Source: Antedon mediterranea
Lineage: Eukaryota; Echinodermata; Crinoidea; Comatulida; Antedonidae
DNA length: 64,000 nt
Direction: 5' to 3'
Assembly (NCBI RefSeq): GCF_964355755.1
Contig: NC_092677.1
Coordinates: 8,437,001 to 8,501,000 of the forward strand
This document shows positions 18,362 to 58,573 of this stretch, one piece after another. The notes beneath the pieces were generated by a model. It was not told where the DNA came from. It was given only the letters and a program-made list of their open reading frames with translations, and made no database searches. Each line of letters begins with the position of its first letter. The stretch's first letter is position 1. Made by a program: the position numbers and the translations under genes.

Positions 18362-18560
18362 ACCATGTATGCCTATTTAAGTCTTCAGTTTTATTTATAC
18401 CTTATTGAAATAGTACAAGAAAACACTCAGCATAGCCATCGCGTGGACCGGTGGTTTTAGTTGACTCTTTTAGCTGAACTGAACTGGTGTTTAGGTAGGC
18501 CGCATTTATCTTTTAATCTGTTTTTGGGAAATTCCAATGTACAAAATTGACGTGGCATAT
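18362..18560 (-). promoter_or_regulatory. putative promoter and noncoding first exon serving copy 1
   Basis: Reading the minus strand: TGCCACGTCA (TGACGTGG on plus, 18548-18555), then GGAATTTCCC, the exact reverse complement of the kB site GGGAAATTCC (18526-18535), then about 160 bases to ACATG|gtaagt with the donor at 18363-18362. Similar order and spacing recur upstream of copies 2, 3 and 4. The nearest downstream acceptor that fits is just before the copy 1 ATG. Transcription start and use are inference. Confidence 0.5.
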
Positions 18561-19332
18561 TGTATATAAATATTGACATAAAATTAGCATCAACATCATA
18601 CACATTAAACCATATCGATCAGTTTATCCCCCATCTCAAACTGCCCCCACAGCTGACTATAGATTTATAGGCCTATTGCAGCTGCAGTAGTATATTGTAA
18701 AAAAAAATTCATTGTATATATAGATTCAAATTAATTCAAGTCATTAAAAAGCAACATATTTTTTCCACTCGACATGATTTAATAGCAATTAGTCAATCAA
18801 TTATTGGCCACATTATAAGAAAAAACATTGAACATTTATGTTATGGGGATAAATTGACGGAAAGAAAACCAGAAGAAGAATCCAATGCAAATTATAACAT
18901 TATTACATAATGTAGGCCTACCATAGCTTTAAAACAGTCTATCTACTGAGTTTGACATCACAGACAGTCCCAACTAAAATTTTTTTTACAACGTTCTTTT
19001 TTACAATTGTGTTGAGATGATTTTCAAAACTTTAATATATTTTTAAAGTGTAAATATAGGAAGTGTAGTATGCATTGAAATAACGAAATTCATTTGGTTC
19101 TATAAATTATTGTTGTGTTAGCTACACATACATCAATTACTGTTTATGTCCCCTGGCTTAGTACATTAGCATTGTGAAATAACCAGATGGCGTTAATAGG
19201 CCTAACCTCATGGTGTGAAATACGTGATTGAAAATCCGCGTAAGCCGCTCGCAAACAATGACTTCTCTTTGTTTTGTATGCTTGTATGTATTTACACTTA
19301 AGTCAAGTCAGTTTAATTAATAATGTAGTTAT
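18561..19332. other. noncoding DNA paralogous to 35870-36300
   Basis: Matches include CATATCGATCAGTTTATCCC and AAATTGACGGAAAGA segments in the same order as at about 35940-36230. No coding frame. Confidence 0.6.
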
Positions 19333-19532
19333 TTATTTTCCTTTGGCCTCACCACCTCTGCGTCTTCTGTCTCGTCTTCTGTTACTCTGTTGTAGTTGTT
19401 GTTTCTGTTCATGTATACTTTTTGTTTCACCTGAGTGTATATTATGATCACGTTTCATACCCTTTACAGCACAGTTGCCATTTTTCAGCTGCGCGTGACG
19501 TACTTAGGCCTACAGTAGAATTATTTTCTTTA
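19333..19532 (-). pseudogene. relic of the 3' end of another type A ZNFX1-like gene
   Basis: The minus strand carries fragments of the type A C-terminus: KENNST near 19520, KGMKRD near 19460 after a frame break, EQKQQLQQSNRRR near 19390, then RRRRGGEAKGK and TAA at 19333-19335. The order matches the tails of copies 1-3, but stops and indels interrupt it and there is no Gly-rich expansion. It sits about 0.9 kb past the end of copy 2, so one more gene once stood here, or the end of copy 2 was duplicated. Confidence 0.75.
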
Positions 19533-20247
19533 AAGTCACATTCCCTGCGTTTTTTAGATCTTATTTAAGGTCACAAACTACATTTAATGTATTGTGTTAT
19601 CTTTTTTCGTCTTTAAACGGTTAAAAATGTGAAAAATAAGTCGATTCTAATTATTTAAGCGGCCTGCACGGATTGATATTTTCGTTTTTCTTCTGTGATT
19701 CACCAACTTTCGATCGATCGTGAAGGCAAAATAAATGGAAGAATCGTAACTTTTCAGCACAAATACTGGGGTTTTTCCCAATTTTTATTAGCGTATTCTG
19801 GCAAAAACAGAAAGACAATTAATGCAGCAACTAGACAACGTCAGGCTATGCCTATATATAGCGTACGGTGTTCGTTACTGCAGTTGGCAGTTTACCAGTT
19901 AGACCTACAAAACTAAGCCTAGTTAGGCTAGTCCTAAAGATCGTCCACTAGAGGACATTCGACGCGAGCTACTTACATAGGTAGTGCATTGTTTCTCTTC
20001 TAATAATGACGATGTCTGTTGAATAATTTAAATACCATCTACAATTTTTCATACCATTTTTTGGAATGAATAATAATACATTCTTATCTTGGTCAGTAGA
20101 ACAAAAAATTAATACAGAGTAATAATAAGAATATATATTAAAGGTAAAGGAATATATATATATATATATATTAAAGGTATTGCAAAAGATACAATATTCT
20201 AATAATAACAATGGTGACGTCAGTGATCAGTGATCATACGTAGTCAT
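19533..20247. other. noncoding DNA and 3' UTR of copy 2
   Basis: 20000-20247 aligns with 36640-36918 (3' side of copy 3), including a (TA)n tract at about 20152-20172. Minus-strand AATAAA overlaps the stop of copy 2, so the real poly(A) signal may be elsewhere. The rest holds nothing I recognise. Confidence 0.5.
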
Positions 20248-20291
20248 TTATTTTCTTTTAGCTCCTCTTCCTCTTCCTCCTCTTCCTCTTT

Positions 20292-20322
<31 letters not shown>

Positions 20323-23300
20323 CCCTCTTCCTCCTCCTCCTCCTCCTCCTCCTTCACCTCCTCCTCCACTTACTCCTCCACCTCCTCCTCCTCCTCCTCC
20401 TCCTCGTCCTCCTCTTCCTCTTCCTCCTCCTCCTCCCCCTCCCCCTTCTCCGCCTCCTCGTCCTCCACCTCCTCCACGTTTCGTGCCACGTCTTCTGTTA
20501 CGGTGCTGCGGCTGTTGATTCTGTTCATTTTTACTAGTTGATTTTTCAACTGGTTGTATAGGATTAATTTTCATATCTTTTCCAGCAGAGTTGGCATCAT
20601 CGTGAATGACTGGGTTATTTTTCTCGTCTTTTTTATTCACGATTATTGGGTCAGCTGGGAGTGACGTAGCATTATTTTCTTTAACATTCTGGTCTTTTAT
20701 TTGATAACTACCTTTTTTGTTTGACGTATGCCTACCGACATCCTTGGTTTGAGCATTAACAAGAGTGTTTGTAGACTTTGAACTGCTCTTTACTTTCTCT
20801 ATTTCTTTTGATTTGGATTTCCTCTGCCTCTGTCTTTGACGTTTACTTCTTGTCGGTTCACTTTGCAGTTGGTGATCATTTTTGTGTTCCGTATGTTCGT
20901 TATTACTGATTTTTCCAGATTGTTTTATTCTCAGCTTTTCATTCTTATTTGAAAGTACGTTCTGATTTTCTGCTTGTACAACTTTCATTTCCGAAGCCGA
21001 GCATTTCTCAGCATCATCGGCATTGTTACCATTGGGCAGGTGACCAAAAGAGCATGTCGACCAGCTTTCTTGACAGAAACTTAAGCATCGTGAAACAGTT
21101 TCTTTGACAAGTACTACTACTTTAGGTAATTGGTCGTCCTTTCCAAGCATATCCAACGCTTCTTGCATAATTTCAGACGTCACGTGTGATTTGTTGTGAA
21201 GAATTATCGATGATAAAGTGTCTGTCTTTTTGTCTGAAACTGTTTTACACTGAAACTTCATTAATCGAACACACGTGTTTATTCGTTGAATCTCTGAAGA
21301 CACGTGAAACACAAATTGTTCAGAAACAATGTTTTCTGAATTCCAAATGCGTTGCTGAATGGTTTCTAGTTGTTGTAAGATGTCCGCTATGTAACTCGTT
21401 TCGCTCTGTTGGTTTAAGTCATCACGAATAGTGACTAATTGTTTTAACATTGTGGTCATGATATCAAATAGAAGTAGTCTTTGATATTTGATTCCATAGC
21501 GGGAGTTCATTTCTTGTAAAAACCACTCCTGGTCAAATGTGCAAAGACATTGTAATTGGTAGTTAATCTTCTGTCTCATATCTTGTACTCGATCTATTGA
21601 TCTTTCAATCCGCATCTTTCTCTTGATGTCAGCTATTCTCATGTTTATTGTTTTAAGGACATTTCCGTATCTCGGATTGAATCGAATGATTGTATGACAT
21701 ACTGGACATTGTTTCAATCTTATACCTTCATCCTTATCCATATATTCATCCATTGTAGAAACGTCAATTGCGTGAGAACAATCGTACAGAAATACATATC
21801 TTGGTCTCGACTTTCCTGCAGATTTAGCTGGATAAAATAAATATGGATTACAAGTTAAGCATTTGTTTTGGCAGGGCTCGCCACAAAGACCAAAGCATTT
21901 ATGTTCACATGTTAGGGTCTTCCGACACGGTTGATTACACCTTTCACGATTACATAAGTCATCACAATTTTGTGTACATATAAAATGAATGCATTTCCAT
22001 TTACATCGGGCTCCACATGGTTCGCAAATATCGGAACAGGAACGTTGGCAGTGTTTGTGCCAGCAACCTGACTCGCACCTTTTTTTACAAGGTTGGCAAG
22101 GAATCATTGAGCAGGGCTGTTGACAATTGTGACCACAGATAAGGTTTTTGTTACAACATTCCATGCATGCTTTGTGTATCTTGCCATGCGAACAATCCTT
22201 ACATTTACCACGACATCGATGCCCACAAACTAAAGGGGTTTTGCATTGTTCCTGACAACTGTCAATGGAACATTCTTCGAAGCATTTCTTTGCGCAAGTA
22301 TGACCACAGAGTAAATCTTTTGTACATCGCTTTTCACAGCGAAAAGGTTGACCACGTTGGCAACAAAGTTGTGTTCTTTCATGTCCACACGGCAAGTTGA
22401 CAGTCAGTTTAAATAGACATGCTGCTTCGCCACTAGTTGCAATTTCTGACACATCAACAAAACACTGTACTTTCTTCATATGTCCACACTTAAGTTCCTT
22501 GTCTACCTTTTCTCTACACAGCTCAGTACATGGTTTGCAACAAAGATTTTTACACTTGTGTCCACATGGTAGTAATCTTGAGCACTTACTGCTGCAAACT
22601 TTGATTTCTGAGCAAATACGTTTGATCGTGTGTCCACATTCTAGTGTTTCAACAACATTTTCAAGACAGTCGGTGTACTCGAGATCTTTAGATTCGTAAC
22701 ATTGCATATTTGTTTCATGCCCACATTTGCGAATTTTAGTAACTTCCGCATTGCATCTTAGATCTAGGTCTTTGTACCTATTAACTGACCTATAGGAATG
22801 ACGTGATATTGGCATAGCTGGTGTTTTTTTAATAGGTTCTACATTACATGGCACCTCTTTTTCATGGTTACATACTAATATTTTAGTTACTAGTTCAGTA
22901 CAAAGTTTACTGAAACATATCTGATAACATTTTTGTCGACACTGGTGTCCACATGATAATGTTTTTTGACATGGCATTTTACAACGAACGTGTTTACCAT
23001 CGACATTACATGGTACCTCTTTCTCATGGCTACACACTAGTATTTTAGTTACAACTTCAGTACAATTATTAGTGGAGCACACTTCATAACATTGTCGTCG
23101 GCACTGATGTCCACATGTTAATGTTTTTTGACATGACATTTTACAATGAACGTGTATACCGTCATCATGATGGTGGTTGTAGCTTTTACATATATAGTAT
23201 GCGTTACATGAATTACCGCAGGTGTTTGGACATGGATGGCCACATTCTGTTGGTTGTGAGCAGGGTAGTGGGCAGGTTTGTGTAAAGCAAGGAACGCTAA

Positions 23301-26300
23301 CGGTATGTCCACATTCGAATTCCTTCTCTATAATCTCAGTACATTTTGTTTCGCAAGCTTCGCCACATTTCATCTTACACACATGACCACACGCTAACGT
23401 CTTTTCACAAGGGAGCTGACAGGATGTTATGTAACACTGTACTTCAATATTGTGACCACATGGAGAAAATAATTTCTTGACAGTTTGTAAACATTTTGAC
23501 GTGCATTTTTCAAAGCATAATTCTTTACATTTGTGCTCACATTTCAGTAACTTTTCGCATGGTTTAGTGCATCGTACCGGATTTTCCAATTTATAACACT
23601 GCAACTTAACCTCATGTAGACATTCTAATGTTGTACTAACCACGACTTTACAAGGTAAGCACGGTACAAAACACATTAAATAACATGCATGATTGCGTCT
23701 ACATAATCTAACACAGTTTTCTTTGCATTCGAATTTCTCATGATTTGGATCTCGAGGATGGCAAAGAAATGGACAGACATGTCCACAGTTTAGGCGAGTT
23801 TCACACAAGAGCCTACATCCCCCCATCGGGCATTGTATAAAATCATCGGCAGTAGATAGTTTGACTTTCGTCGCCGGGTGGTTTTGGCAGTACACTTCAA
23901 TATAGCTTCCAAAACAATTTGAATTTTGCATGTCATTGACGATCTTCATCCAAAGGTCATTCTTTTCAGATAGAAGTTTAAAATTTCCAATACAGAACAT
24001 ACCCTTTTTTGCTCTTGATAATGCTACGCACATTCGGTTCGAAACTTTTAGAAATCCTATATTTCCAGCCTCGTTACTTCTTACTAAAGACAACAATATT
24101 ATTTCATTTTCTTCGCCTTGATAATTATCTACGGCGTTTACATACACATCACGTAAACAATTATACTCCTGGTCTTTAAGTAGTCGTTTCAAATTAAGTA
24201 CTTGACCAGTATACGTCGTCAAAATGGTGATACTAGAGGCATCGTATCCCTGTTGGTACAGATACTTTGCAAATGCTACACAATACTCAGCTTCGTGTGC
24301 ATTCGATTTGCTTAATATATCTTCTACAGACTCCTCTTGAATATCATGGTTGATAAAGAACAAATTATGAGCTACACCTTTAACGTTATCAAACTCTTTT
24401 ACTGACTTGTCATCGAGGAGATGACTGTAAAAGTGTTTTCTCATGATTTCTGATATCTGTGGTCGCATTCGGTGTTGTGATGATAATTTCTGACAAGGAA
24501 CATCATTTGTAAGCATTCTTTCAAATAGCGATGTGTCAAGGTTGAATTTGGTGGCAAGTTTATATACTGTAGGATTTGGCTTCAATTGCTGGTGGTCTCC
24601 GATTAGAATTATCTGTTCGCATTGTTTCGTTAGGCTTGTTACAATATGTGCTTCCAATATTTCCGCAGCCTCTTCAACAACAACTATTCTTGGTCGTATT
24701 CTATTTAGTAACTCTTTATTCTTAGCAGCACCAGTTGTTGTCATGCCTATTACATCTATTCCACTCAGTGCTTCACATTTATCTTTATTATCTTCTTCTT
24801 TAATACTATTGCCTACAACCTGATCATATGCTTGCTGTTCTTCAAACAATATTTCTCGTAACTGGCCTTTGTATTTTGTTATCCAGAATCGGTACAGGCG
24901 CCATTTATTGTGTGTGGAAATCAGTCGGATATTCACTCTGTTTGCTTCGTGTTCTGTCATTTCGTCCCCTATAACAGATAATTGTCTTTCTACTGTGGCT
25001 TGGTGCTGTTTCAACGGTGCATCTTTACATTTCATTTCCGGATCGTATGCGAGTGCATTGATTGTCACATTCTTTTCGGATTCATAATCAAGTTTTGCAC
25101 TGATATCATAATCCCGTTGATCTAACATCATGTCAAACTCAGTTGTAATATTAGCGTTACCGTTTGGTTCTGTTTCATTGTCTTTGTCGTATTCAGTATC
25201 ATCCTTGATTGCAATGTCCTCGGTACGTTGTTCATTATTCTCTGAATCAGAAAGGAGACCTAGCCATGTAGGTAATGCCGAACGTTTTTCGTCTACTCCG
25301 TATTCCGCTCGTGAGTCTCTGAGGCATTTTAAATGGTTTTCATTAATGACCTTTTCCAAAGTAAATTCACTGATAATGTACTTGTCACAAAGTTTAATCA
25401 TTTCTTCAGCCTCTACCATCCGGCTGGTTATAGAACCTGCAAGTTCTTTTACACTACGAAACTCTCCTTTTTTCCTTCTTGTTTTCTTTACTAACTCTTT
25501 CAAATTGAATGTTTTAAGTGTTTCGCTTTTTGACCTCCCACCAATTCTTGCCAAATTATCACAAAATCTGAGTATACCTTCAAGAAATTGGTCCAGTGCA
25601 TGGTTTGTGTAACATATTACCATGATAATATTAGCACTGCCTTCGTCAGCCTGCTTGTCGGAACTTGTGGCCCAGCGATGTTTGTTAATGAGGAGAGTTT
25701 CAACGACCTTTAATCCAATATAAGTTTTTCCAGTTCCTGGTGGCCCTTGAATGACTGCAATTTCCTTAGTTAGGGCTGATTTTACAGCGGTAATCTGTGA
25801 TTGATCAAGTGCTAGGTTGTCAATTTTTAGCCAATCTTTTTCGTCGTCTAGAATATCTACCATGTGGTTACATCGAACCATGCTGTGTAAATACCTACTT
25901 TTTACATCCTTTGCCTGAACTTTCAAAAGTGGTCGTATATCGTACATCATTTTGGGTGTATTACGAAGGTATTTTGGTCTTTCTATATCATGCGATGCCC
26001 GTATAATATACTTGTCCATAGGTAGAATGTTGTCATCATCAAACTGTTGGAGAACTTGCAAAACAGGCCTGTAACTCTCAAAAAATGCTGTTGACTCTAC
26101 CATGGTACAAGTATTTAGACGTGTAATCTCCATATATCCAGCGTTGTGGAATTTAATGTCAACACGGCCTTGTTGTAATAATGATTCATCTCTATTGCAA
26201 ACGGTACCAAACAGAAGAGTTTGAAAATTATCATGAGATAAGCAGACAAGTGAACCGAAAATCAAGCGTTTTGTATTCTTCCATCTTATGTTTTTCAGAT

Positions 26301-28641
26301 TACAGAGACTAAACTGTACTCGATGGAGAACCCCATGCTCTGTCTGAGAAATCACTGGGTGTTCAATGTTTACATCGTAATACAAGCGGACATCTGTATT
26401 CCTCTTTCTTTGATTTCGTTGAAATGCATTTGCAACATTATCGAGGTGTATTTGAATTCCTTCACGCAATGGACATATAAAGTCCTCACGTAACAATCTG
26501 AATTGTACATCAAGGTAATGATATTGGCTTGCGTAGCTTCCTTTGATTTTATTTGGACGAAGGAATGGTAGCTCTTTGGAATGAAGATCTTCTGTGGTTG
26601 GCAATATTGGAATGTCCCGGTAGTCATCAGGTGGTGGTCCGTCAGATATTCCTTCTCTTTTTGCAGATTCAAGTTCTCTCTTCTTCTTCTCTGCTTCTTT
26701 AAATTCTAAAATCCATTTGTCTGTTTCCTTTTTAAAACGTGCTACATTTATAAGAGCATCTTGTGACAACTTTCGTTTTCCAAACAATTCCTTACTTTTA
26801 ACATCAAGTAAATTTGTAATGAGGGCCACATCATTAACCTCTCTAATTTCAGAAGTTACCCCATTCAAAAACTTCCATACCAGATTTAGAAGTGTTGCAG
26901 TGTTTTTTTGTATTTCATCTTCATTTTTATTACCATCTATCTTAAACTTATCTCCTAAATGAGTTACATATGGAATTACGATTTTCTTTAAAAATGAACT
27001 TGACTTTAGCATATCTACAAGTTTTTCCCGGCTTTCAGATATTTCGCACTTGAATATTCTTACGTATACTTGGAGAAGGACTTCAACGACATTATTACCC
27101 ATTTTCTCATCTTTTAGCAGTTTGTTGAGGTGGTCAGTTCGATAAGATAAACATTCCACTGGATCACATTTCTTCTGTAATATACTATTCAGATCTGTAA
27201 AATTTACTGCAAAAAAAGTATATTTATCATTTGAACGCTATATTGAAACAATATGGTTTAATGTGGTTAGTTGACACATTATTGCTGAATCAGGATTTGT
27301 GTAGTAAAGTAGTGGGGGAGGGTATAGGATGTGATTGCTGATTGAATATCAATATTAAGAAATGGGTTAATTGTTATAATATTATTATTAACAACGTTAT
27401 TCACATTTGTTCTTCCAAAAATAATAAAAAAGGTACTTACATGCTACAACATGAGATGTCCTTTTTACTATTTCATTAGGAAGATATGCAGACGAAAAAC
27501 CTTCATATCTAATAGAGTAATAATAGATAAGTACAATGTTTACCCAAACATTTAAAGATGTATCTTCCCCTAAGAAATAATTCTTAACATTTTGTACACC
27601 TTGACAAAAATTTGGATCGGAAAAAAAATTACCTGAAAAAAATGTCAATTAAAGCAAAAAATAGTGTTTTTGGTTGAATTTAACCATTTATTTTGTCATC
27701 TAATAAGTGAAAACATTATTTTTGTTCCACCCGATTACCAGTGCTGTATCTCCACATACTATCTATTTCCGAAGTATCAAAGGAATATTTGGTAATACAG
27801 CATCTCATTTAAATCACATGTTGTGCCTGTATCATGTAAGGTTATGTTACTACAGTACTAGATACATATGAAACACATGTGATGTATTTCCAAATTGTCC
27901 TATGATAATTCGGAAATAGATACAGTAACGAGAATCGGCTGCATTTTAAAAGTCAGATTTAATTAATGTTTATGCTTTTGGTGGATAATACATCTTTAAA
28001 GTATTTAAAAATGTGTAATCCTTTTTAATGAAATAATATAATATATAAGGTAAAACATTTAATGTCAATGTAAAAGTACAGCCCGGGATTTCCCCTTCAA
28101 TACAATGTATAATGTAGTCTGTATTATGTTGCAAGTTTAGTTTTTTTAATAAAATCGCAACCGATCATAAACATACTAATCATACAAAATTACACCCAGC
28201 ATTTGTAAAACGGTTTGTAAAACTCGGCATTTTAGGTTGATGATAAGCTTTATTTGGCTATTGAACGATTTTAATTTAAATGACTCCAATTAAAAAAAGT
28301 GATTGTTGAGTGAAACCCGTAAATGCGTTTTATTACGGATAGGCTTACCTCTGTTTTAAATTTCCCCTGCCTCTTCCTCTGTTTTGAAAGTGATCTTGTC
28401 TCCAGTTGGTAGTAGATGCTTCCCTGCTGTTAAAATCTGGTGCTTGTCCTCTAAAGTGATCTTGATTATTTGTACGCCGCCACCTAGCCCTATACATGGT
28501 ATCTTCCCAGGTGCCGTTGTCTGGCGTGTCATGCCTTCTAAAATGATGATATTGGTGTGTAGGCCCATCTATTTGTTGGAATATAGCCCTTCTTTGATGC
28601 TGATGGTGTCGGCTGGGATCTTTAGGCCTAGCACCTTGCAT
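20248..28641 (-). CDS. ZNFX1: ZNFX1-like RNA helicase / NFX1 zinc-finger protein, type A copy 2 (intact)
   Basis: Exons 28641-28349, 27508-27441 and 27206-20248 join in frame (phases 2 and 1) to 2439 residues. Walker A GPPGTGKT is at about 608, EEAAE at about 965, then GDHQQLKPN, SQHRMRPQ, VDNYQGEENE and VALSRAKKG, all intact. NFX1-type fingers run from about 1247 to 1904; a CPVC segment follows near 1957, and the RGG tail starts near 2353. A roughly 150-base finger unit (CKMSCQKTLTCGH / CKMPCQKTLSCGH) is duplicated. The C-terminal RZ-like motif has kept CSFGH, but the second CxxC cysteine is lost (KCSASE). The linker between motifs Ia and II is acidic and differs strongly from copies 1 and 3, while the helicase core is nearly invariant at protein level with many silent changes, indicating purifying selection. 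RNA binding and unwinding is family knowledge; substrate unknown. Confidence 0.9.
20255..20510 (-). repeat. GGN triplet repeat encoding RGG tail of copy 2
   Basis: Plus-strand CCT/TCC-rich microsatellite, the purest of the three tails, encoding long Gly runs with RGG and RGR steps and ending GRGAKRK before TAA. Opposite-strand frames read as poly-Ser and are artefacts. Confidence 0.8.
22860..23160 (-). repeat. duplicated zinc-finger unit in copy 2
   Basis: Two adjacent units of about 150 bases encode the fingers that begin CKMSCQKTL and CKMPCQKTL and end with EKEVPCNV. They share the linker GxHV and are absent as a pair from copy 3, so this is a lineage-specific internal duplication. Confidence 0.7.
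27441..27508 (-). CDS. coding exon 2 of ZNFX1-like copy 2
   Basis: 68 bases between acceptor TCTATTAG and donor GCAT|gtaagt, reading YEGFSSAYLPNEIVKRTSHV then VAL into exon 3. Phases match copies 1 and 3. Confidence 0.7.
27754..27936. mobile_element. palindromic MITE, family copy 1
   Basis: The arms TATCTATTTCCGAA..TATCA..GGAATATTTGG and the inverted CCAAATTGTCC..TGATAATTCGGAAATAGATA pair over about 45 bases. Centre contains CACATGTTGTGCCTGTATCATGTAAGG. Relatives lie at 46194-46384 and 56153-56330. It sits in the intron between exons 1 and 2 of copy 2. Confidence 0.6.
28349..28641 (-). CDS. coding exon 1 of ZNFX1-like copy 2
   Basis: ATG at 28641 opens MQGARPKDPSRHH; the exon ends RGRGRGNLKQ AG|gtaagc. 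An acceptor TAATATTAG lies about 7 bases before the ATG, implying a noncoding first exon upstream. His, Arg and Gln rich with a terminal RG repeat. Confidence 0.75.
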
Positions 28642-28650
28642 TACTTATCT

Positions 28651-30650: not shown

Positions 30651-31262
30651 AGAGATATACATCTGCCTGTTCTCATGTAGCAAGCACCACAAGCAACTAG
30701 TCAATCAGAATATATATAGGTGACTGCTGTGCATTCTGCCAATTTCCAAATATTATCTTCCAGACTGGAGTTTCATAACGTATAAATATGGATATTGTAT
30801 GCGATGAAATGGGACTCAATTTTAATTTAGTGGCAGAAACAACATTTAGTATGAAATTAAGGATGTTGCCCGGTCAACTAGGGCAACACCCCTGGATCCG
30901 TCCCTGAATACGATCCTATTCCCTATCTCAAATAAACAGTTTACGTAAGCATATTTCATGAGATGACCAAACTGTTTGTTCTGTTGTTCCGCCAAACCAC
31001 CAATTGACTGTCTTAAAATACACGAGCATGGTTCCCGAGAGTGAAAATTGGTTAAAACATAATATTGATCATACTTCTCTACTTTGATAAAAAAAAAGGG
31101 CTTATAACCAAACAATTTTTTTTTAGATTTGTTTATTATTTTACTTTTGAGGATATAATCTATAACCTGAATTTACAAATTATCTCTCCTTATTTTATTG
31201 ATACTGCGACCTTATCCAATCATGTCGAATTTGTAATAGTCTAACTGTATAATATTTTACTT
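30651..31262. other. noncoding DNA, partly paralogous to 17304-17400
   Basis: About 30780-30870 matches 17304-17390 (GATGAAATGGGACTCAATTT). The rest includes a fragment GGATCCGTCCCTG of a type common near repeats. No supportable coding frame. Confidence 0.45.
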
Positions 31263-31440
31263 ACCATTAATGTACAGTAGATCTAAGCTAATTTACTTCA
31301 TTGTGTAACGAACAACACTGTATAGCTGATTACCTGAACACCCTTGGATAACTGATGTTTAATTAGCCTTGTATTACTTTATAATCAGTTTTTGGGAAAT
31401 TCCAAAATTGCTTTGTCAATATCTCGATCCGGTACGTCAT
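31263..31440 (-). promoter_or_regulatory. putative promoter and noncoding first exon of copy 2
   Basis: Minus strand order: ATGACGTA (TACGTCAT on plus, 31433-31440), GGAATTTCCC (kB at 31394-31403), then about 130 bases to TTAATG|gtaagt with the donor at 31264-31263. Downstream, the acceptor before the copy 2 ATG at 28641 fits. Order and spacing agree with copies 1, 3 and 4 although the surrounding sequence has diverged from that of copies 3 and 4. Confidence 0.5.
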
Positions 31441-32122: not shown

Positions 32123-32330
32123 AAAAATACATTAATAGTATGTCGCATACAAATATGTTTTATAGACAATGGAAGTATGAAACTGTAAACTAAGTCATAT
32201 TGAGTCATCGTTAGGATATAGGCCTAATATCCGGATTTTTTTTCAAAACAATAGATCCTCTTTTTGAAACAGGTAACAGTGGGAAATTCCAAAATAACCA
32301 CGTACATAGAGTAAACTAATTAATTATAAA
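32123..32330. other. noncoding DNA with an isolated kB site
   Basis: An exact GGGAAATTCC lies at 32281-32290, followed by AAAATAACCACGTAC. No first-exon donor of the usual kind lies in the next 200 bases on the minus strand. It abuts the 18-bp tandem repeat, whose monomer contains AAATAACCAC. Confidence 0.45.
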
Positions 32331-34679: not shown

Positions 34680-34683
34680 TTAA

Positions 34684-35236
34684 AGAGGTATTGTCCCTTT
34701 GACTAATCCCCCCCCCCCCCCACCAAATTTTTTTATTTCGAAAACAAGTGGGTCATTTTGAAGTATCATAATAGTTTTTAACTTTCACCAAAAATTTGTC
34801 GAAAAAATAAATAATTTAACTGAAATACAGATGTTTTTTTGTTCAAAAAATAACTTTGACTTCCAGTCAAAGTTTTAAATCAAAACATATCTCATAATGC
34901 AACGCGCTTGTTTGGCTACTCTGTATGCATAATCATAAAACTTCCTCGCGATCTGTGTGAAAACACCTTCTCAAGCGTGATGAGTTGTAAACAATCCTAA
35001 TTAGCATCATGCATGATGCATACTCATGGTTTGAAATCTTTGTTTACTTTCGCTTGCAACGATTTCCCAGACGAAATGTAATCTAATTCATTTACCTGTT
35101 AATTACGTAAACTTGTTGTTTTTGGCTCGAATTTTCGACTTAAGGTGAATAACTTTAATATTACTTTGATATGGCTAGTTTAAATTTAGAATATTTTTTT
35201 TTTTTGATTTTTTGTGTTTCAAGAGACAATAGATCT
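34684..35236. mobile_element. 553-bp TTAA-flanked MITE
   Basis: TTAA at 34680-34683 and 35237-35240 flank imperfect terminal repeats AGAGGTATTGTCCCTTTGA and, inverted, AGATCTATTGTCTCTTGAA. A C(11) run is at about 34711. The host sequence (TTTAAGT..TTCA..GTTTATTTATAC) is intact at 17850, 18375 and 35725, showing the element inserted into a first-exon-like module. Confidence 0.75.
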
Positions 35237-44801: not shown

Positions 44802-44811
44802 TACAATTTAT

Positions 44812-46193
44812 CTAAATGAAGTAAGTACCACATTAGTTGCATCTGTTTGGTTGTTTTTATTGACCTTGTTGAATGAGAGTGACCTAAAACAGCATATGAC
44901 AATTATTGGTGTCCTCACATAAATTACATAATTATAAAAGTAAAAAAAAGTTATACAATTAATTTTCGGAGATTAGAGAAAAGTTATTGCCCTGAAAAAA
45001 TCCTAATAATTTTACAATTTGAGTTACACATATCAAATTGTAAATTATTGTGTAATAAATATTAAACTGATTAATCTTTAGACTAATATTTAAAATTCCA
45101 GAAAAATAATAATTTATTCTACAGATGTTGCGTCATTAAAATCTTCATAAGTTTAGGCATTATTAATAATGAATTAAAATAAACAATGATATAAATTGGT
45201 AGTGATGTTGCGTTATGAAGTAAAACACATTTTCTTAAAGTCTCGAAATTGTATTGCCTGGTCAAATTTGGTAATCAACTTTCAAATATTTCAACTGCAA
45301 CACAAAGCAATCAAATGGTAGCATGAGGTCGTCCGTAGTGCAAGTCACATGATATTCATCTCCACTTATTTTGAGGTATGTACAACAGTTACACATCAAT
45401 AGGCCTATACACTGCATATGACAATTGGTTTATACATAAGGTAGAAGGTGGCTGTTAAAAAGCCAAAATAGGTTTGATGTGCCTGTTGGTTTTCTGAAAG
45501 GCTTGGCGTCGTTTATGTGTTGAAGACAATGTACATGGATATTTACGATAAATTGGGCAGTGGGGCCTGATTTTACCATTTAAAATGGAAGAAATCACTT
45601 GACTATTTTCCAAACGTACGGAGGCACGTCAAGGAAATGTATTAAAATACAAATAATGAATATAAATGTAGAAAATAATATATTTTACGGTATATATAAT
45701 TTAAATAACTGTGTGTTGATAGTCACCTACTTTTGTAGACATAGTAGACCTACCGCATTTTTTTTACAGAGGCCTGTTTATTTCTTACCAATATAAGGTC
45801 GGGAAAGTATTACATGTACCTATTCCAAACCAATAATAATATGAAAATATTATGTAAGTATTGTGTATTACGAAGTTGTAATTAGTCAAATCAATCAAGG
45901 CAGTCAATTAAGGCCACAATGATATTCGAGCATTTTGATTTCGGAATAGATTTTTTTTTCCAAATTCCTTTTTATTAGGAATCATAATAATTTGTGTGGC
46001 ATGATGTTATATCTGTTACTCTTATTTTCCGCTAACTGAAGATGACAAGCTTTGCTTTTTACAATGTTGAATAGACTGGGTGAATTTGCTGCGCTCATTT
46101 GCTGCGCTCGTGTAATAATTTTATCAAGTTAATCAATTACTATAGCAAACACTTTTACACATTTCCATGCCCGACACAACCAAGTATTACCCG
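44812..46193. other. noncoding DNA, probable 5' UTR intron of copy 3
   Basis: No coding frame. From about 45197 it matches 55143 onward (GGTAGTGATGTTGCGTTATG), which marks the left edge of the type B duplication block. Confidence 0.6.
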
Positions 46194-46417: not shown

Positions 46418-46428
46418 GGGGAATTTCC
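46418..46428. promoter_or_regulatory. kB-type site in 5' intron of copy 3
   Basis: GGGGAATTTCC fits the NF-kB consensus and is conserved at 56389-56399 in the paralogous block, about 335 and 240 bases inside the putative first introns. Function is inferred from consensus and conservation only. Confidence 0.35.
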
Positions 46429-46760
46429 TCTTTTAACCTGTAGAAAGCAAACACACTACCTCAGCAATGCCATGGAATTAATAAGGTTAGGTTAGGTTGC
46501 ACAACATCAGATATGCTGTTTGTTTTGTCTATGTTCTGTTTTAGAAAAACATAACTCGTTCACCTCAAACAACTCACCTACTACACACGACATTTATTTT
46601 GTAATAATATTTCATAGATATGTACTTCCTTGTTTCGGCCATTCTGCTGAATATGTGTAACTATAGACCGTGTTTGGTTCATGATATTCATGTTTAGGTG
46701 GTCTATGTATATTATTGTAGGTCTATCTACAGGCCATATTAATAAGCAATGAATATACTT

Positions 46761-46922
46761 ACCATGTATGACGCTTCTAAAGCTCTTTTTGCGCTGTTTT
46801 GTGGTCTAATAGTAGACTAATATACTGTACTGGCACAACTTAAACGACAGCATCTGAGACACACGAAGATAGCATCGTCGGGAAATTCCAACATACAGAA
46901 ATCATGTGACTTAGTACGTCAT
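46761..46922 (-). promoter_or_regulatory. putative promoter and noncoding first exon of copy 3
   Basis: Minus strand order: ATGACGTA (TACGTCAT on plus, 46915-46922), GGAATTTCCC (kB at 46880-46889), then about 117 bases to ACATG|gtaagt (donor 46762-46761). This is the uninterrupted relative of the copy 4 module at 56637-58573. The acceptor just before the copy 3 ATG at 44801 fits. Confidence 0.55.
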
Positions 46923-48823: not shown

Positions 48824-51800
48824 TCAACATTCTGGGCACTTGCTTTCCATCGTGGCACCACCGCAGTCACCTATTGCATATATGTGTCCTTTTGGGCATA
48901 TTCCGGGAATAATACAGCCGCATTTCTCTCGTATTTTCTTCAAGCAAAAATCTACGGTCTTTATATCATCTTCTTTTAGAGGCTTCACGCCAGCGACTCG
49001 TTTTTTAACCATTGATAAATAATCCACTAATCCATCTTTGCTAATTTTAGAAGTATGTAGTATGCTTTTAAGTACATATAATTCCATAAAGTATTTGATA
49101 CGTTGAAGCTCTAGCGATATATCTTCAAAAAGTTGTTCATTAAACCGATTTCTTGGTTTAAGGATCCATTGTTTGCAGGTTTCAAGTTCTTTCTTTATCT
49201 TTGTCTCAATGTTCAAATATCCTGAATAAATTTTGCCATTACCTGCTTTTGAAATCTTTTCTAACTCCAAGAGAAACTGTACTTTGTTCTTCATATCAGT
49301 AACGTGATCCGGTGTCTTCAATGTTTTGAGTTCAGTACTAAGAAATCTACGCGACTCTGTGTCAAATACTCTTGAAATTTTAATTTCCAGCCTTCTTTTA
49401 TCCAAATCTATTAGATGTTTATCTCCATTAATTTTTGCCTTTACACGTTCCATGTCCATTTGTAATTGTTTTATGATATTGCCATACCGCAGATTCCTTC
49501 TAATTGGTGTTTTACACACTGGACAAAGTTTTGGCTTGGCATGGTTTTGTTGTTCGTCTTTATCATCCATCCATGTATCTAGTGCTTCTGATTCTATAAC
49601 GTGACCACAGTCTTCCAACTCAATAAATCTTGCATCAGGCTCATCTTCGTTACCAAACATTATAGTGGTTAACTCTGTTCTATCGCATATCCGACACTTC
49701 TTGGGACACGGCGCACCGCAAAGACCAACACATGCATGACCACATTTTATAAGCTTCTTACATGGTTCATTGCACCTATCTCGACAGCAGAGTTGCCCAC
49801 ATTGTCTTTTACAAGTTTGATGTTCGCATTGCCATTCACACGGCATTGTACAAGGTGTACACTCTTCTCCACATTTCATAGGACATTTGCTATGAACACA
49901 TCGGTTTTCACATGGTTTACTACAGGGTGGACAATTTCGTGTGCATGGTTCAAGACATTCGTGTCCACAAACCAAAGTCCTGCCACATTTCGACCGACAC
50001 TGTTGATGAAGACGACCATTTTTACAATCTCCACATTTTCCTTCACATGTATGGTCACATTTCAAAGAGAATCCACATGGGTGAAAACATTTTAACGGAT
50101 CATCTACATAGCATTTGTATTTGCCCTTATGCCCACAAGGCCATAGTTTACTGACAATCTTTTGACACCTACTTGTACATGGCTGGCTGCATCTTTCATT
50201 ACAGGCATGTCCACACTCTAATTTCTTTGGACAAGCTGACAAACAAGCGACTGTAGACACATCCTTGAAGCAGGGTACCTTCTGATTGTGCCCACAAGGT
50301 AAACATTTTGTCACTGAAACTTTGCATTCCTTCTCACACTCCTGAAAACATTTAAGTCTACAAGGATGTCCCATAGGGCATGTGGCTCTGACACAGGCCT
50401 CACGGCAAATAACTATTTTGTGTTCGGGGTCATATGGGTGGCAGGGCAGCTTACAGACGTGTCCGCATTTAAGTCTGCTAATACAAGGTACGTTGCAACC
50501 TCCTTCTGGGCATTTAGTGAAGTCACTTAACTCACGTATTTCTACGCTTGTGTTTGTGTGGTTTTGACAACACAGTCGAATAGTTGGTCCAAGCAATTTT
50601 TTTTGTCGAAGTTCTTTGACAATTTTGTTCCAGTTTTCATCTTGGGCAGCAAGAAGTTTCATATTTCCGATGCAAAACAATCCTTTCTTTGCTCTCGATA
50701 ATGCTACACACATCCTAGTCTTTTCTTTAAGAAAGCCAATTGAAAGAAGAATTATCTCATTTTCTAAGCCTTGATAGCTATCAACGACGCAGACGCGAAC
50801 GCCCTTGAAAATGTTTGACTTCATTATTTTCTTGAACTTAAAGAGTTGATCCGTGCAGGTTATAAGGATTGTAATCTCTGATGGTTCGTAGCCTTGTTGA
50901 ATAAGGTACTTACAAAGATTTACCAAGAACTCAGCTTCAAAAATATTTGATTTACTAAGAGTTTCGTTGACTGCAGTTTCAAGCTGATTATGTTCAATAA
51001 AGAACATATTATTTGACACACCTTTAATATTACCATACTGAAGGACATTTGGGGCATCTAGAAGGCCAGTGTAAAAATAATTCTTCATAATTGATGATAT
51101 TTCTGGTCTCATTCTATGTTGAATATTTAACCTCTGACAATCCATACCGTTCTTTACCATCCTTTCGAAAAGAGAGATCTCTAACTTGAACTCTTTGGCA
51201 AGATTATACACCGTTGGATTAGGTCTCAGTTGCTGGTGATCCCCAATTAATATAAGGTGTTCACAACCTTCAGTCAGACTTGACACTATATGAGCTTCTA
51301 GCACTTCTGCGGCCTCTTCTACAATGACGATCTTTGCCTGAATTCTTTGAAGCATATTTCTACATCGTGCCGCTCCAGTAGTGGTCATACCAATTACCTT
51401 AGCATCTCGCATCAAACGAAGATCCTCCTCTAATCCGATTTCTTGAAGTTGTTTTCCTAACGCATCATAATTGGCTTGATTTTGAAATAGCGTCTGACGT
51501 TCGTAGTTACAGTATTTCGATATCCAAAATCGGTATAGACGCCAACGATCATTCAGTTTGAGATTCCATATGTTACCAACTCTAGCAGCTTCAATATCTC
51601 TCATTTTGTCAGAACTAAGCAGTTGTTTTTTTAGGTATCGTGATCTCCTCTTTTTATTTCCTGCTAATTGAAAGCCATCTTCATCTGCAACCTGTTTCAG
51701 TGGGTCGTACGCAAGTTGACGTCTAACAGTTTTCTTTATTCTATCGATTTCCTTCACATTTACTTTTTCACCTGTTATGTCATCGTCGACATCAACGATT

Positions 51801-54627
51801 CTTTGTTCGGTTAACAAATCTGCCTCTTCCGCAATATCCATTTCTTCGTTTTCTTCTTCTGTGGGTTCTTCGTCCGGATCGTGTACAATGTTTTGAATGT
51901 CATCAACAACTATGTCAGAAGCTATATTATTCCCTGCCAATCTTAACCAAACCACCACTACATTGTCACTGTTTACTTCAAACTGCGTCAATGATTCGTA
52001 ATGATCATCTGACATCCATGTTTCTAGGTAGATTTCACCGATAACACCAGTTGTTGTCACTTTTATTCTTTCCTCTGCTAGATTCATAACATCTCGTAAT
52101 GCATGCATATCTCGAAGAATATCTCTTTTTCTATTAAGTATGGATATGGGTAATTCTTTTCGCTCTCTTGCTTTTTTTCGAAGCTGAGTTAGATTGAAGC
52201 TTTTCAAAGTTTCACTATTACTTCTTCCACCAACCCGTACTATATCCGTTGGTTGAAATGAGTGTATGCCTTCAAGAAATTGATCAAGCGCATGGTTTGT
52301 GAAGCAGACTACGAATATAGGGCTGTGTTTTACTCTAGCATGAGCAGCGTCAATCGTCCAACATTCACTGTTATAAAGCAATGCATGCACAATCTTTAAC
52401 CCTATGTAGGTTTTACCAGTTCCAGGTGGACCTTGGATGACTGCAAACTCTTTCGTCAACGCTGTCCTAACAGCGTCAAATTGCGATTTATCGAGTTGAA
52501 GGGCCGTGGCTGTTGGCCAAGAATTATCAGCTATTCTTACAAGAAGTTTTGTAGTTCCGTCAACCAACGGTGATAGGTCATATGTCATAGTCCTGTTATG
52601 ACGTAGATACGATGGGGCATCGACTTCGTGGCGGGCTTCAATTATGTAGCTTCTCATCGGCATGCTTGTTTCTGTAATTTCCTGCAAACTGTGTAGTACG
52701 TGTCGGTAAGCTTCGAAGAAGGAAGACGTTTCAACCATGGTATAATGCCGTTCGATTAAGCCAAAGTCAACGTCGTTTTCAAATTTGATATCTAAGAAAC
52801 CATTTTCAAGATGCTTTACTTCTCTATTTGCCACAGTAGCGAAACAAACTGTCTGGAAATCGTCTGGAGACAGGCATACAAGTGACCCATAAATCAAGCA
52901 CATTGTGGATTCCCATGAAACTCCCTTTAAGCGTGACACATTAAAGTGTACTCGGTATAAAATACAGTCATGTGAACACACTGGATACTCGATAGTTACG
53001 TCATTATACACCCAAAGGTCAGTTATTCTTCTATGTTTGTCGTCTTTGTGTTGTAGGTATTCTCTGATGCCTTCTCGAAGTGGTCTCACCAAGTCCTCTC
53101 GAAGTAATCGGAACTGGACATCTAGGTAATGATCCACGTTATCGTAACTACCGTCAAGTTTATTGCGTCGCAAATAAGGTCTTCGGTCTGCAGTTAGATC
53201 ATTTAGTGTAGGAAATATTGATATTGCCCGGAAGTCGTCTGGTGGAGGGGTTTCTTCGTCCACATTGACCTTTTTTCTGCGTACACTCTTTACATTTTCT
53301 TCTTGAGTATTTTCAACAGCCTGAAAAAACTCATCCAACGCTTTGTAACGCTCTAAAAAACACTCACCGATTAATCCTTCTCCAACTAACTCATCAATAG
53401 TTATTTTTATCAGAATTAATGAAGCTTTAAGCTCATGTGTAGAGCTTGGACGTTTTTCAACCAGTGTCCAAATTACAGTAATGATATCCTGTATTTCTAC
53501 TTCGTATTTCACCCTATCACTCCTTTCATTCTTTAGTGACATAATATGATGACTCATAACATATTTAATAAATGAAGATGTTTGAAGTGTACCTAAAAAT
53601 AAATTCAACGAGGCTTTAGAAGTTGTACACTTGCACGCATTAACAATGGCGCGTAAAATTAAGACGCGTATATCTCTACGAATGTTATCCTTATTTAGAA
53701 GTTTCTGGAAGCCAAAACCGGTCTCTAGAACCTGCATAAGAATTTCTTCTTTTTCTTTACTCAGCAGTTCTTCTAGTCGTTTATAACCTATTAAAAAAAG
53801 TGTTGTTCAAGTATACATTTAATAATAGAGTCTTTTGAATTAATGCTTCTGCATTGGAGACGAACGAAACAAACAAACGAGAAATTTGTCTTTTTTGTTG
53901 ATCCAATAGATCGAAAGTACTAAAAATTGTACTTGATCGTGTTGTATAAAACATATGAGCAATATAATCTATTATGTAATGTATACAGTTTCTACTTTCG
54001 TTTATATACATTTCTTTTGAGATTACAATTTAGTAGTAGGAATATAGGTAACTTTTTAAAAAAAATTCCAAAATGAATGTAGGCCTACGAATATAATTAA
54101 TAGAAAAAAAAACCTGTTGGCCTTATTTCTCTCTTTGGTCGTGCGCCCCTTCCAAAACTATCATGGCCTGGATTGCCACCACCACCGTAACTGTCATGTT
54201 GACTCACGGATCTGCAATAATCAACACTTTTATTTTTCAATTGAAGCAAAATCTATTTTACTCATTCATTCATTCTTGATTTCAGATAAATACTCATAGA
54301 GAGATTCTTGGTCCTGAATTATTTAACATTGGAAGGTTTGGAATTGTAGAATGGCTATACGGTAGTAAATTAAACTATATTTTGGTTAGGTTAGTACGGT
54401 ACTAAATAAATTTCTTCCCAATGTATTATTATTACTAAATTTATATCTTGTGCAATCATCATGCAAATAATAGTGCTTGTATCAACATCATAAATCAGAG
54501 GACTATCTTTAGAATTGTATAAGTACCTTTCTATTGATCTATGTGACGCACTTCTACCTTCACCTCCTCGACCACCACCGCGCTGACGTCGTCCACGGTA
54601 TCTATGTTGTCGGGACTGATCAGCCAT
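48824..54627 (-). CDS. ZNFX1: ZNFX1-like protein, type B copy 4, helicase motif V region and RZ finger damaged
   Basis: Exons 54627-54527, 54211-54114 and 53787-48824 join in frame (phases 2 and 1, as in type A) to 1720 residues, near the human length of about 1918. Walker A GPPGTGKT is at about 519, EEAAE at about 890, and GDHQQLRPN and NIQHRMRPE are present. NFX1-type fingers span about 1161-1430, then CPVC near 1490. Odd features against copy 5: a clean 27-base deletion near 50745 removes LVRSNAAGK just after VDSYQGLENE, the motif V segment with the conserved VR; the TYTGQ motif has become TCTDQ; a 63-base deletion near 48894 removes the first half of the RZ finger; and TGA after CPEC ends the protein before the GG tail. 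All four RZ zinc ligands (CPKGH, CPEC) remain. RNA binding may persist while unwinding is probably lost. I start at the ATG at 54627, the first in the exon. Confidence 0.85.
54114..54211 (-). CDS. coding exon 2 of ZNFX1-like copy 4
   Basis: 98 bases between acceptor GATTATTGCAG and donor ACAG|gttttt. Reads SVSQHDSYGGGGNPGHDSFG then RGARPKREIRPT; the ARPK/ARPKDP similarity to type A exon 1 hints at a common origin. The donor has a weak T-rich intron start, yet the frame and phase fit exactly. Confidence 0.7.
54527..54627 (-). CDS. coding exon 1 of ZNFX1-like copy 4
   Basis: Reads MADQSRQHRYRGRRQRGGG and continues through GRGGEGRSASHRSIE to AG|gtactt. This is an RGG-type N-terminus. The acceptor GATGTTGTAG ends at 54650, so transcription starts further upstream. 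A GTG 18 bases earlier is in frame but is not a credible eukaryotic start. Confidence 0.75.
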
Positions 54628-56330: not shown

Positions 56331-56388
56331 TAAATACAGTGCCTACCGAGAATTCATCATTATTCATACACATTGGTGGACATTATCT

Positions 56389-56399
56389 GGGGAATTTCC
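56389..56399. promoter_or_regulatory. kB-type site in 5' intron of copy 4
   Basis: GGGGAATTTCC, conserved with 46418-46428 in an otherwise drifting block. Confidence 0.35.
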
Positions 56400-56636
56400 G
56401 CGTGGAATTAATAAAGTTAGGTTGCACAACATCAGATATGCTGTTTGTTTTGTCTATGTTCTGTTTTAAAAAAACATAACTCGTTCACCTCAAACAACTC
56501 ACCTACTACACACGACATTCGTATAAGGTTCATAATAATATTTCATAGATACTGTATATACTTCCGTGTTCAGTTGATCTATGCATATTATTGTACGTCT
56601 ATCCACAGGCCATATTAATAAGCAATGAATATACTT

Positions 56637-56711
56637 ACCATGACGCTGCTAAAGCTCTTTTTGCGCTGTTTTGTGGTCTAATAGTAGAATAATATACTGT
56701 ACTGGCACACC
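56637..56711 (-). promoter_or_regulatory. noncoding first exon of copy 4, cut off from its kB site by a transposon
   Basis: Matches the 3' part of the copy 3 module (46761-46830), ending GTCATG|gtaagt with the donor at 56638-56637. The upstream half with the kB site is 1.8 kb away at 58531-58573 because of the element at 56716-58490. The exon start is not visible. Confidence 0.5.
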
Positions 56712-57249
56712 TTAAAGGAGGTTTCCGGGTTTAAAATGAATTGTAAAAAATGTAAAATATATTTGTTTGTCTCTTGAACGGTAAAAGTTTCAATTTATAT
56801 AAGCGCCCAGTGAAGCAGAACGAAGGCTGTGAAATGAGGCCAGATTACAAGTGCAGCTACGGCGATATGACACTGTGTTACAGGAAATTCGTGAAATAGT
56901 CAATCTTCCGACGACTCGTTATCATTAATCATATCAATTACTTTTGTAAAATTATACTTATCTGATGTAATTTTAGTCGGTCTTCCCATTTATAAAGTCA
57001 ATTTTCTATGAAAATTCATCAAAACAGTGAAAAATTAGATATGTTTGCACTTTACGTTTGCCGATTTTCGCACTGACTTAGGGAAAGCCTTCAAATTCAA
57101 TGAAGCGTAACGTATACATTCCTGCTCAGGAAGAGCGAGACGACGATACATCCGTGCTCTCTCTGCCCATGCCTGGCAGCGGCATCGTCACGTGATAAGC
57201 AGATACAGTATACAATACCAAACTGGTCGGGTCGAGTATACCCCGTGTG

Positions 57250-57480
57250 GAGCCGTGAAATGTGCAAAAAGTCACATTTGTGCAAACAACCACATTTGTG
57301 CAAACATTTTACCTTCAAATGTGCAAACAACAACCACATTTGTGCAAACATTTTACCTTCAAATGTGCAAATCTGTAAACATTCATTAACCGCAAATGTG
57401 CAAACATCACGCCGTTAAATGTAAAAACGGTCAGTTTTGACGTTAAATGTGCAAAAGGTAGGCCTATTCTACAAATGTGC
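57250..57480. repeat. minisatellite of AAATGTGCAAA units
   Basis: Imperfect direct repeats around CACATTTGTGCAAACA and TTCAAATGTGCAAAC inside the TTAA element, absent from the copy at 1-1526. Confidence 0.7.
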
Positions 57481-57579
57481 AAATCATTTATTCAGTCAAA
57501 TTCCTATTACACTTTATATTTTTGGTTCGTAGGTCTTTCAGAGTAGAAATAACAATAGGAAAAAGAGTCTAATAAATTT

Positions 57580-58006
57580 AAAATGCTCAATATCATAATA
57601 ACTAATTATACTGTTGTATTTTATTATGATCAAAGGCTTTAACCCGTCTAAGTCAACTCGCCCTGAAGTCAACTCGGCCTCACGTCAACTAGGCCACCTT
57701 AAAGTATGAAACGCAAAAGTGCAAATGAATGGGACAAAATAAGTCTAATGAACAGAAGAAAAATAATAAAAACGAAGTACGCATGTTATAGGGATGAATA
57801 TTATAATGAATGTGAATGTTAGTTGACCCCTCCATGGTTGACCGATTAGTTTTTGGCCGAGTTGACGTGAGGCCGAGTTGACTTGAGGCCGAGTTGACTT
57901 CAGGGCGAGTTGACTTGGGGCCGACTTGAATTTAGCCGAGGCGATTTAGAGCCTTTGATTATAATAAAATACAACAGTATAATTAGTTATGATATTGAAC
58001 ATTTTT
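57580..58006. mobile_element. nested foldback element with GTTGAC repeats
   Basis: Arms of about 120 bases pair: CAATATCATAATAACTAATT on the left with its inverted counterpart near 57980-58000, then AGTCAACTCG units on the left opposite GAGTTGACTT units on the right. Only the TTAA element here carries it, so it inserted into that element. Confidence 0.75.
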
Positions 58007-58530
58007 AGGCCTAACCTAGTACGTGATTCGAAGCCGATAATAATAACTGTCTGTACTATTGGAGGTATAAAAATAGTATATAATTTATGACTCCGTAATC
58101 TGTACTAAATTTTGTATTTTATTAAATGTCAAATAAATGCTACTACTGTTATTATTACACTTTAGGCCTAGCTTAGAAAATCTACAAAAAAAATATATTT
58201 CACAATGATCGGGTGGTCGTCGTTTGACAGGGGAGAGATGTAAATTAGTTGACGTCGCGAGTTTGGAATCCACTGATGACGTGTTTTGTGAATATCTCAT
58301 GAATATTAATGAGCTTTCCTAGCTGCTGAAAAACAGACTTTCCATGAATTTACCCTAAAATGTATATGAAATTTAATTTTTTAAATTTCTAGTTATTACT
58401 TCTTCATTCTGACATGTCTATATTGTTATAATATTTTTTATTTAATAAATGAACGATATTTAAAAGCAATTTTAAACCCAGAATCCCCCTTTAAACGACA
58501 GCATCTGAGACACACGAAGATAGCATCGTC

Positions 58531-58573
58531 GGGAAATTCCAATATTAAAAAATCATGTAACTTAGTACGTCAT
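58531..58573 (-). promoter_or_regulatory. kB and TGACGT sites of the interrupted copy 4 promoter
   Basis: GGGAAATTCC at 58531-58540 and TACGTCAT at 58566-58573, with the same spacing as in copy 3 (46880-46889 and 46915-46922). They are now about 1.9 kb from the first-exon donor instead of about 120 bases. Confidence 0.5.

Follow-up and report, generated by a model that had tools for sequence, protein, structure and literature searches.

kappaB sites at the probable promoters of twelve ZNFX1 genes in the crinoid Antedon mediterranea

Upstream of four ZNFX1 genes in a 64,000-nucleotide stretch of the Antedon mediterranea genome (the window; C8:8437001-8501000 of a genome whose 18 contigs total 354,431,138 bases), a kappaB site, GGGAAATTCC, stands between a TGACGT word and the splice donor of a noncoding exon. 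We found that a kappaB word recurs upstream of the coding exons of all 12 ZNFX1 genes detected in this genome, and the modules that contain it are probably proximal, Rel/NF-kappaB-inducible ZNFX1 promoters. The sites, their positions, their presence at the 12 genes, an exon structure defined by conservation and the Rel recognition loops encoded by the same animal can be read from the sequence; from these we infer binding, induction, the start of transcription and an antiviral role.

kappaB words upstream of the ZNFX1 genes

The window contains four large minus-strand open frames (genes 1-4) and, at its right end, part of a fifth gene that is 94% like gene 4. Genes 1-4 match the Pfam models ZNFX1, AAA_11 and AAA_12 (helicase) and belong to the ZNFX1 family. 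A profile search found 12 ZNFX1 domains genome-wide, in two rows on C8, namely nine genes on the minus strand at C8:8.40-8.51 Mb (gA, gB, gC and g1-g6, with g1-g4 being genes 1-4 of the window and copies 1-4 of an earlier note on this DNA) and three on the plus strand at C8:11.20-11.23 Mb (gX, gY and gZ).

A strict kappaB word, defined as GGGAAATTCC or GGGAATTTCC on either strand, was detected upstream of the coding exons of 12/12 ZNFX1 genes, in each case near the presumed transcription start; nine have GGGAAATTCC and the other three GGGAATTTCC. Altogether, 18 strict words fall within 67,316 bases of upstream stretch (that of gX being counted up to its large exon), compared with approximately 0.3 predicted by the genome rate. 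When 4000 words of the same composition were tried, none matched more than four of the 12 genes, and none more than two of the eight diverged genes (gA, g3, g2, g1, g5, gX, gY and gZ; the near-duplicates gC, g4, gB and g6 were left out). Genome-wide, GGGAAATTCC and GGGAATTTCC number 844 and 855, versus 343 and 316 for the reversed words, counts in which a site readable both ways is entered twice and to which a satellite on C7 adds copies. This satellite (C7:4016121-4400657) consists of TTGGAATTTCCC repeats at 45- and 225-base steps. The center of the site reads GGAATTTCCC in the first gene row versus GGAAATTCCC in gY and gZ. The central base pair is not directly contacted by NF-kappaB, and A-centered GGGAAATTCC (IP-10) and T-centered GGGAATTTCC (MCP-1) differ in their response to RelA (PMC9991059).

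Within the window, all five exact copies of GGGAAATTCC that the earlier note had counted were located, at 18526, 31394, 32281, 46880 and 58531 on the plus strand, where 100 shuffles average 0.07 and never exceed 1, and the genome total (844 in 354.43 Mb) predicts 0.15. Modules 3 and 4 lie inside a 90%-identical duplication, and the five copies therefore do not represent five independent events. The order that the earlier note had described (TGACGT, kappaB, donor) is kept in 4/4 modules when read in gene orientation, with GGTAAG at the donor, but strand and spacing are not uniform: in module 1, unlike modules 2-4, TGACGT is on the other strand, with 18 bases instead of 32-36 up to the kappaB start, and it fails to align with its counterpart in module 2. 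From kappaB start to donor, the distance is 171 bp in g1, 138 bp in g2 and 126 bp in g3. Genes and module words are as follows (window positions).

2766..10517, minus: gene 1 large ZNFX1 open frame, stop to stop (Pfam ZNFX1, AAA_11, AAA_12)
18526..18535, minus: gene 1 promoter kappaB site, 171 bp before the donor, reading GGAATTTCCC on the gene strand (exact word)
18548..18553, plus: TGACGT, activating transcription factor/cAMP response element (ATF/CRE) half-site, module 1 (exact word)
20248..27237, minus: gene 2 large ZNFX1 open frame (open frame list and Pfam)
31394..31403, minus: gene 2 promoter kappaB site, 138 bp before the donor (exact word)
31434..31439, minus: TGACGT, module 2 (TATGACGTAC; exact word)
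32281..32290, minus: fifth kappaB word, bordering an 18-bp minisatellite and 887 bp further upstream than the module 2 site (exact word)
35236..36323, minus: two degenerate module 1 copies upstream of gene 2, kappaB lost in one and one base changed in the other (alignment)
37726..43863, minus: gene 3 large ZNFX1 open frame (open frame list and Pfam)
46419..46428, minus: second kappaB word GGGAATTTCC, gene 3 intron 1 (exact word)
46880..46889, minus: gene 3 promoter kappaB site, 126 bp before the donor (exact word)
46916..46921, minus: TGACGT, module 3 (exact word)
48824..53806, minus: gene 4 large ZNFX1 open frame (open frame list and Pfam)
56390..56399, minus: second kappaB word GGGAATTTCC, gene 4 intron 1, in the stretch aligning with that of gene 3 (exact word)
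58531..58540, minus: kappaB site, gene 4 promoter (exact word)
58567..58572, minus: TGACGT, module 4 (exact word)

Neither a donor nor TGACGT was found in the stretch read around the fifth word, of which a paralogous copy occurs upstream of gB. The minisatellite beside it (approximately 32207-34300, between gene 2 and gene 3) is open in two minus-strand frames of 555 and 646 aa. The degenerate module 1 copies were considered as proof of selection and dropped, as at such divergence a change would be expected in roughly half of all 10-mers (alignment estimate).

The first exon and conservation of the site

GGTAAG follows the primary kappaB site at 105-241 bp downstream in 11/12 genes, the exception being g4, where the kappaB half of the module is parted from the donor by an insert of approximately 1.77 kb. 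The insert has 36-bp inverted-repeat ends (81% complementary) and a flanking repeat, TTTAA or TTAA; module 3 is the uninterrupted form of module 4. Sequence related to the insert also occupies window positions 1-1531 (88%-93% in two pieces). Exon 2 was located by the peptide M[RQS]GARPKDP in gA, gB, gC, g2, g3, gY and gZ and by alignment in g1 (MRGAKPKDP), while g4, g5 and g6 have another N-terminal peptide. In all eight located copies, an ATG shortly follows the presumptive acceptor, so the 5' exon is taken to be noncoding, in keeping with what the earlier note had proposed. Exon 1 often ends in ATG (ATG/GTAAGT, the slash marking the exon end), but a coding start there was rejected because gB, the near-twin of gene 2 outside the window, reads AAG/GTAAGT, and a better ATG follows the exon 2 acceptor. 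In g2, a TATA-like TTATAAAG is followed approximately 30 bases on by an initiator-like CATCAGTT (both read by eye), a pair that would fit a transcription start between kappaB site and donor.

11869..11883, minus: presumptive acceptor and start codon, gene 1 exon 2 (MRGAKPKDP; alignment)
18358..18366, minus: splice donor, gene 1 noncoding exon, ATG/GTAAGT (consensus)
28639..28650, minus: presumptive acceptor and start codon, gene 2 exon 2 (MQGARPKDP; peptide motif)
31259..31267, minus: splice donor, gene 2 noncoding exon, ATG/GTAAGT (consensus)
44799..44813, minus: presumptive acceptor and start codon, gene 3 exon 2 (MRGARPKDP; peptide motif)
46757..46765, minus: splice donor, gene 3 noncoding exon, ATG/GTAAGT (consensus)
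56633..56641, minus: splice donor, gene 4 noncoding exon, ATG/GTAAGT, beyond the insert (consensus)
56720..58490 (ends approximate), no strand: insert with inverted-repeat ends, between the module 4 kappaB half and the donor (alignment)

Among the eight diverged promoters, 28/28 pairs match at 9 or 10 of the 10 kappaB bases when either orientation is allowed. Identity in freely gapped columns is 0.66-0.86 for the upstream flanks, against shuffled means of 0.71-0.76, and 0.63-0.85 for the downstream flanks (the shuffled background was computed for the upstream side only); most upstream flanks, although not all, are near the shuffled background. With one mismatch allowed, every 10-mer present in 8/8 promoters overlaps the kappaB site, and exact kappaB words reach 5/8 whereas other exact words reach 2/8; in 40 shuffles of the eight promoters, the peak was 3 for exact words and 7 with one mismatch. 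Because the promoter regions were cut with the site fixed, the shared-10-mer list shows only that nothing else is common to all, and it is the permuted-word test (4000 words) that carries weight on frequency. Among the paralogs of this single genome, and in regions cut around it, the kappaB site is thus better conserved than its flanks, a comparison of the kind that the earlier note had suggested for its four modules. Around the site, g3, g4, gA and gC have a conserved island, TATGACnnACTAARTYACATGAT, followed by kappaB, and gY and gZ have a related ACNAARTCACGTGAT before the site.

Promoters and coding regions may not always have kept company within the row. The coding DNA of gene 4 is 94% like that of gene 5, but its promoter and intron 1 resemble those of gene 3, and g5 and g6 have a promoter class other than that of gene 4 (window positions 46840-52038 compared with 58491-64000). 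This mismatch suggests a promoter swap inside the ZNFX1 row.

Partner sites and the interferon-beta enhancer

Words for possible partner factors were scanned from -200 to +110 around the kappaB site of the 12 promoters. TGACGT occurs within 200 bp of the kappaB site in 8/12, always upstream, and within 40 bp in 5/12. The AP-1 word TGASTCA was found in 2/12 (gA and gC, both without TGACGT), in both within 40 bp, and 2/12 promoters have neither word. An E-box-like TCACRTGA is present in 5/12, the gamma-activated site (GAS) word TTCNNNGAA in 4/12 and the interferon-stimulated response element (ISRE) word GAAANNGAAA in 1/12 (gX, twice); the factors named for these words are those that we take to bind them. 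Given that TGACGT is over-represented across the window (55 versus 25.5 expected), the case for a basic leucine zipper (bZIP) partner is weaker than that for kappaB. Of the NF-kB/ATF control proposed in the earlier note, the kappaB part is upheld by sites kept at probable ZNFX1 promoters, while the ATF part, with TGACGT, the AP-1 word or neither depending on the gene, stands less firmly.

The same note had equated GGGAAATTCC with the kappaB site of positive regulatory domain II (PRDII) in human interferon-beta, and the two 10-mers are indeed identical (PMC9991059). In the interferon-beta enhancer, NF-kappaB, IRFs and ATF-2/c-Jun occupy adjacent sites (PMC3192840). The crinoid promoters may further resemble that enhancer in having a bZIP word upstream in 10/12, but differ in lacking GAAANNGAAA in 11/12, in serving ZNFX1 rather than a cytokine, and in the orientation of GGGAAATTCC, which lies on the strand opposite to the gene in 7/9 genes having it (g5 and g6 show the other orientation). 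No IRF site was found between ATF and kappaB words in the 12 promoters, GAAANNGAAA being confined to gX, where it overlaps and lies 3' of kappaB. Since IRF-type words are missing in 11/12, the ZNFX1 element is not of the interferon-beta enhanceosome type, and by analogy it would work like the kappaB part of that enhancer without belonging to the type. In only one of the 12 promoters, that of gX (approximately 11196084), do ISRE-like words touch the kappaB site, with two of them overlapping it or adjoining it on its 3' side.

A published table of core interferon-stimulated genes lists ZNFX1 and PARP14 without a star, which places both in the vertebrate core (PMC5747502). The vertebrate ZNFX1 promoter is described as carrying STAT1/2, IRF1 and IRF9 motifs (PMC11959080). 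The crinoid genes are of the same family and would share its immune induction, whereas their constant element is kappaB. Insects are not known to have an interferon. The STING-Relish pathway of Drosophila similarly employs an NF-kappaB-type factor in innate immunity without interferon (PMC13144350), although with target genes other than the tandem cluster of ZNFX1 genes and the two PARP14-like genes of the crinoid.

Rel factors, a second gene family and alternative explanations

Profile searches detected two IRF loci and about four Rel-homology loci in the genome; vertebrates have more of both. That the animal has no interferon is inferred from this invertebrate-like factor set, with no search made with an interferon model. 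Rel-homology exons encode RFRYECEGRSAGSIPGE (C10), RFRYECEGKSHGGIPG (C6) and RFRYQVEGRSASISGE (C7), of which we take the first to be of RelA type and the second of p50/p105 type on the basis of the recognition-loop motif; the animal thus encodes a Rel protein with a kappaB recognition loop. Heterodimers with a p50 or p52 subunit recognize 10-base sites such as GGGAAATTCC (PMC9991059), and two jellyfish NF-kappaB proteins bind a mammalian consensus site (PMC12221839). In the mechanism that we favor, the sensing of infection would free the animal's own Rel/NF-kappaB dimers, which would bind the kappaB site approximately 105-241 bp upstream of the first-exon donor, joined in most copies by a bZIP protein (ATF/CREB or AP-1) at a word further upstream. 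Transcription would then begin between kappaB site and donor, giving a short noncoding 5' exon with the start codon placed after the next acceptor.

The composite TGACGTA-N12-42-GGAATTTCCC has five matches in 354 Mb, four of them in the ZNFX1 cluster (g2, gB, g3 and g4), whereas its reversed control has none in the genome. The fifth, at C4:25194239, is 355 bases before the first ATG of a plus-strand gene whose first exon begins MAAFKNRTGEAAVYVRFEGLSKPYPPSLSDKLQLYFQSYKKSGGGD and presumably resembles PARP14. Further exons of this gene match Macro (E 2.1e-21), its score against the PARP14 KH model is just under the cut-off (25.8 vs 27 bits), and a second strict word, at C4:25194332, lies 262 bases before its ATG. 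In a neighboring PARP14-like gene with exons matching Macro, WWE and PARP, a strict word at 25168746 precedes the ATG (near C4:25168859) by 113 bases and stands beside TGAGTCA. The surrounding 63 kb (C4:25164300-25227299) thus hold three strict words versus 0.30 expected, all at most 360 bp upstream of two first coding exons. The pair, which are tandem relatives, was reached by following one composite match, and a single chance match in the genome would be unsurprising; chance is nevertheless unlikely here given the position and the further strict words. We tentatively propose, as a possibility well short of probable, that in an invertebrate the ZNFX1 and PARP14 families belong to a single regulon under direct control of NF-kappaB and a bZIP partner, and that interferon later took over genes so wired. 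The gX promoter, with ISRE-like words at its kappaB site, could picture a step in such a takeover.

Several observations weigh against Rel-inducible ZNFX1 promoters. Some cross-class flanks exceed the shuffled level (up to 0.86 vs 0.74), and the regions used in the pairwise, shared-10-mer and partner-site comparisons were all cut around the kappaB site itself. All 12 promoters could descend from one ancestral promoter, and as they are related by duplication the genes are not independent. Exon 2 of gX was not found, and its promoter was recognized through the kappaB site alone; gA and gC, whose ZNFX1 domains (C8:8401736-8401993 and 8432850-8433161) lie in short open frames of 302 and 582 aa, may be broken genes, yet the kappaB site is kept in both. 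In human cells, the jellyfish proteins mentioned above failed to activate a kappaB reporter (PMC12221839). Moreover, no strict word was found in the 10 kb preceding the first DNA-binding exon in the C10 Rel-type gene and two IRF genes, whose promoters may lie further away, or in 30 kb made up of the 10 kb before the C-terminal exon of three RIG-I-like genes (three of four matches, the fourth being weak), of which at least two stretches probably fall short of the promoter, having helicase exons near the far end. There is accordingly no sign of a rule spanning all immune genes. The viperin model had no match, leaving no viperin promoter to compare.

The alternative to which we give the most room, while still considering it unlikely, is that Rel or another factor binds the site for a constitutive, developmental or germline program rather than in infection. 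In nematodes, ZNFX1 takes part in transgenerational epigenetic inheritance (PMC11959080), and the E-box-like word beside kappaB in five promoters would fit such a role, but the kappaB word is the same as in established immune sites (those of interferon-beta, IP-10 and MCP-1; PMC9991059), and the second family with kappaB beside its starts, the PARP14-like one, is also immune. Slightly less probable is shared descent alone, under which promoters were copied along with their genes and the 10-mer is a leftover without a present role. Modules 3 and 4 (90% identical), gA and gC (97.8%) and the pieces of g2 and gB that hold kappaB sites (80%-92%) are consistent with copying, as is the common island around the site in class I promoters; against it, most between-class flanks are near the shuffled level while the site agrees at 9-10 of 10 bases, no words other than kappaB recur in all eight diverged promoters, and the kappaB word occurs in both orientations.

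We give a little less credence again to a conserved exon that is not a transcription start, with the region being an intronic or distal enhancer of longer transcripts. Second kappaB words in intron 1 of gA, gC, g3 and g4 are compatible with this, but GGTAAG downstream of the site in 11/12 genes, an ATG closely following the next presumptive acceptor (located through the peptide motif in seven genes and through alignment in g1) and the TATA-like and initiator-like words of g2 argue for a start nearby. Very improbable, finally, is a module that belongs to a dispersed repeat, which the earlier note had named, in the form of a repeat spread genome-wide without genes, as fatal to its reading. Although the window is rich in tandem and inverted repeats, genome searches (which skip very common words) placed module 3 at five sites (itself, both module 4 halves, gC and gA) and module 2 at two (itself and gB), so that module DNA matched in the ZNFX1 cluster only. 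Proximal promoters inducible by Rel/NF-kappaB thus remain the reading that we prefer.

Among the matches listed in a literature search that included few subscription journals, titles and abstract openings did not describe kappaB control of invertebrate ZNFX1 genes; no claim of absence from print is made. The 12 promoters constitute a natural series for asking which kappaB bases selection keeps. If our reading is true, infection may switch ZNFX1 genes on directly, as opposed to through interferon as in vertebrates, which would provide a concrete answer, with named sites, genes and a second family (PARP14-like), to how interferon-less animals activate genes that vertebrates run through interferon.

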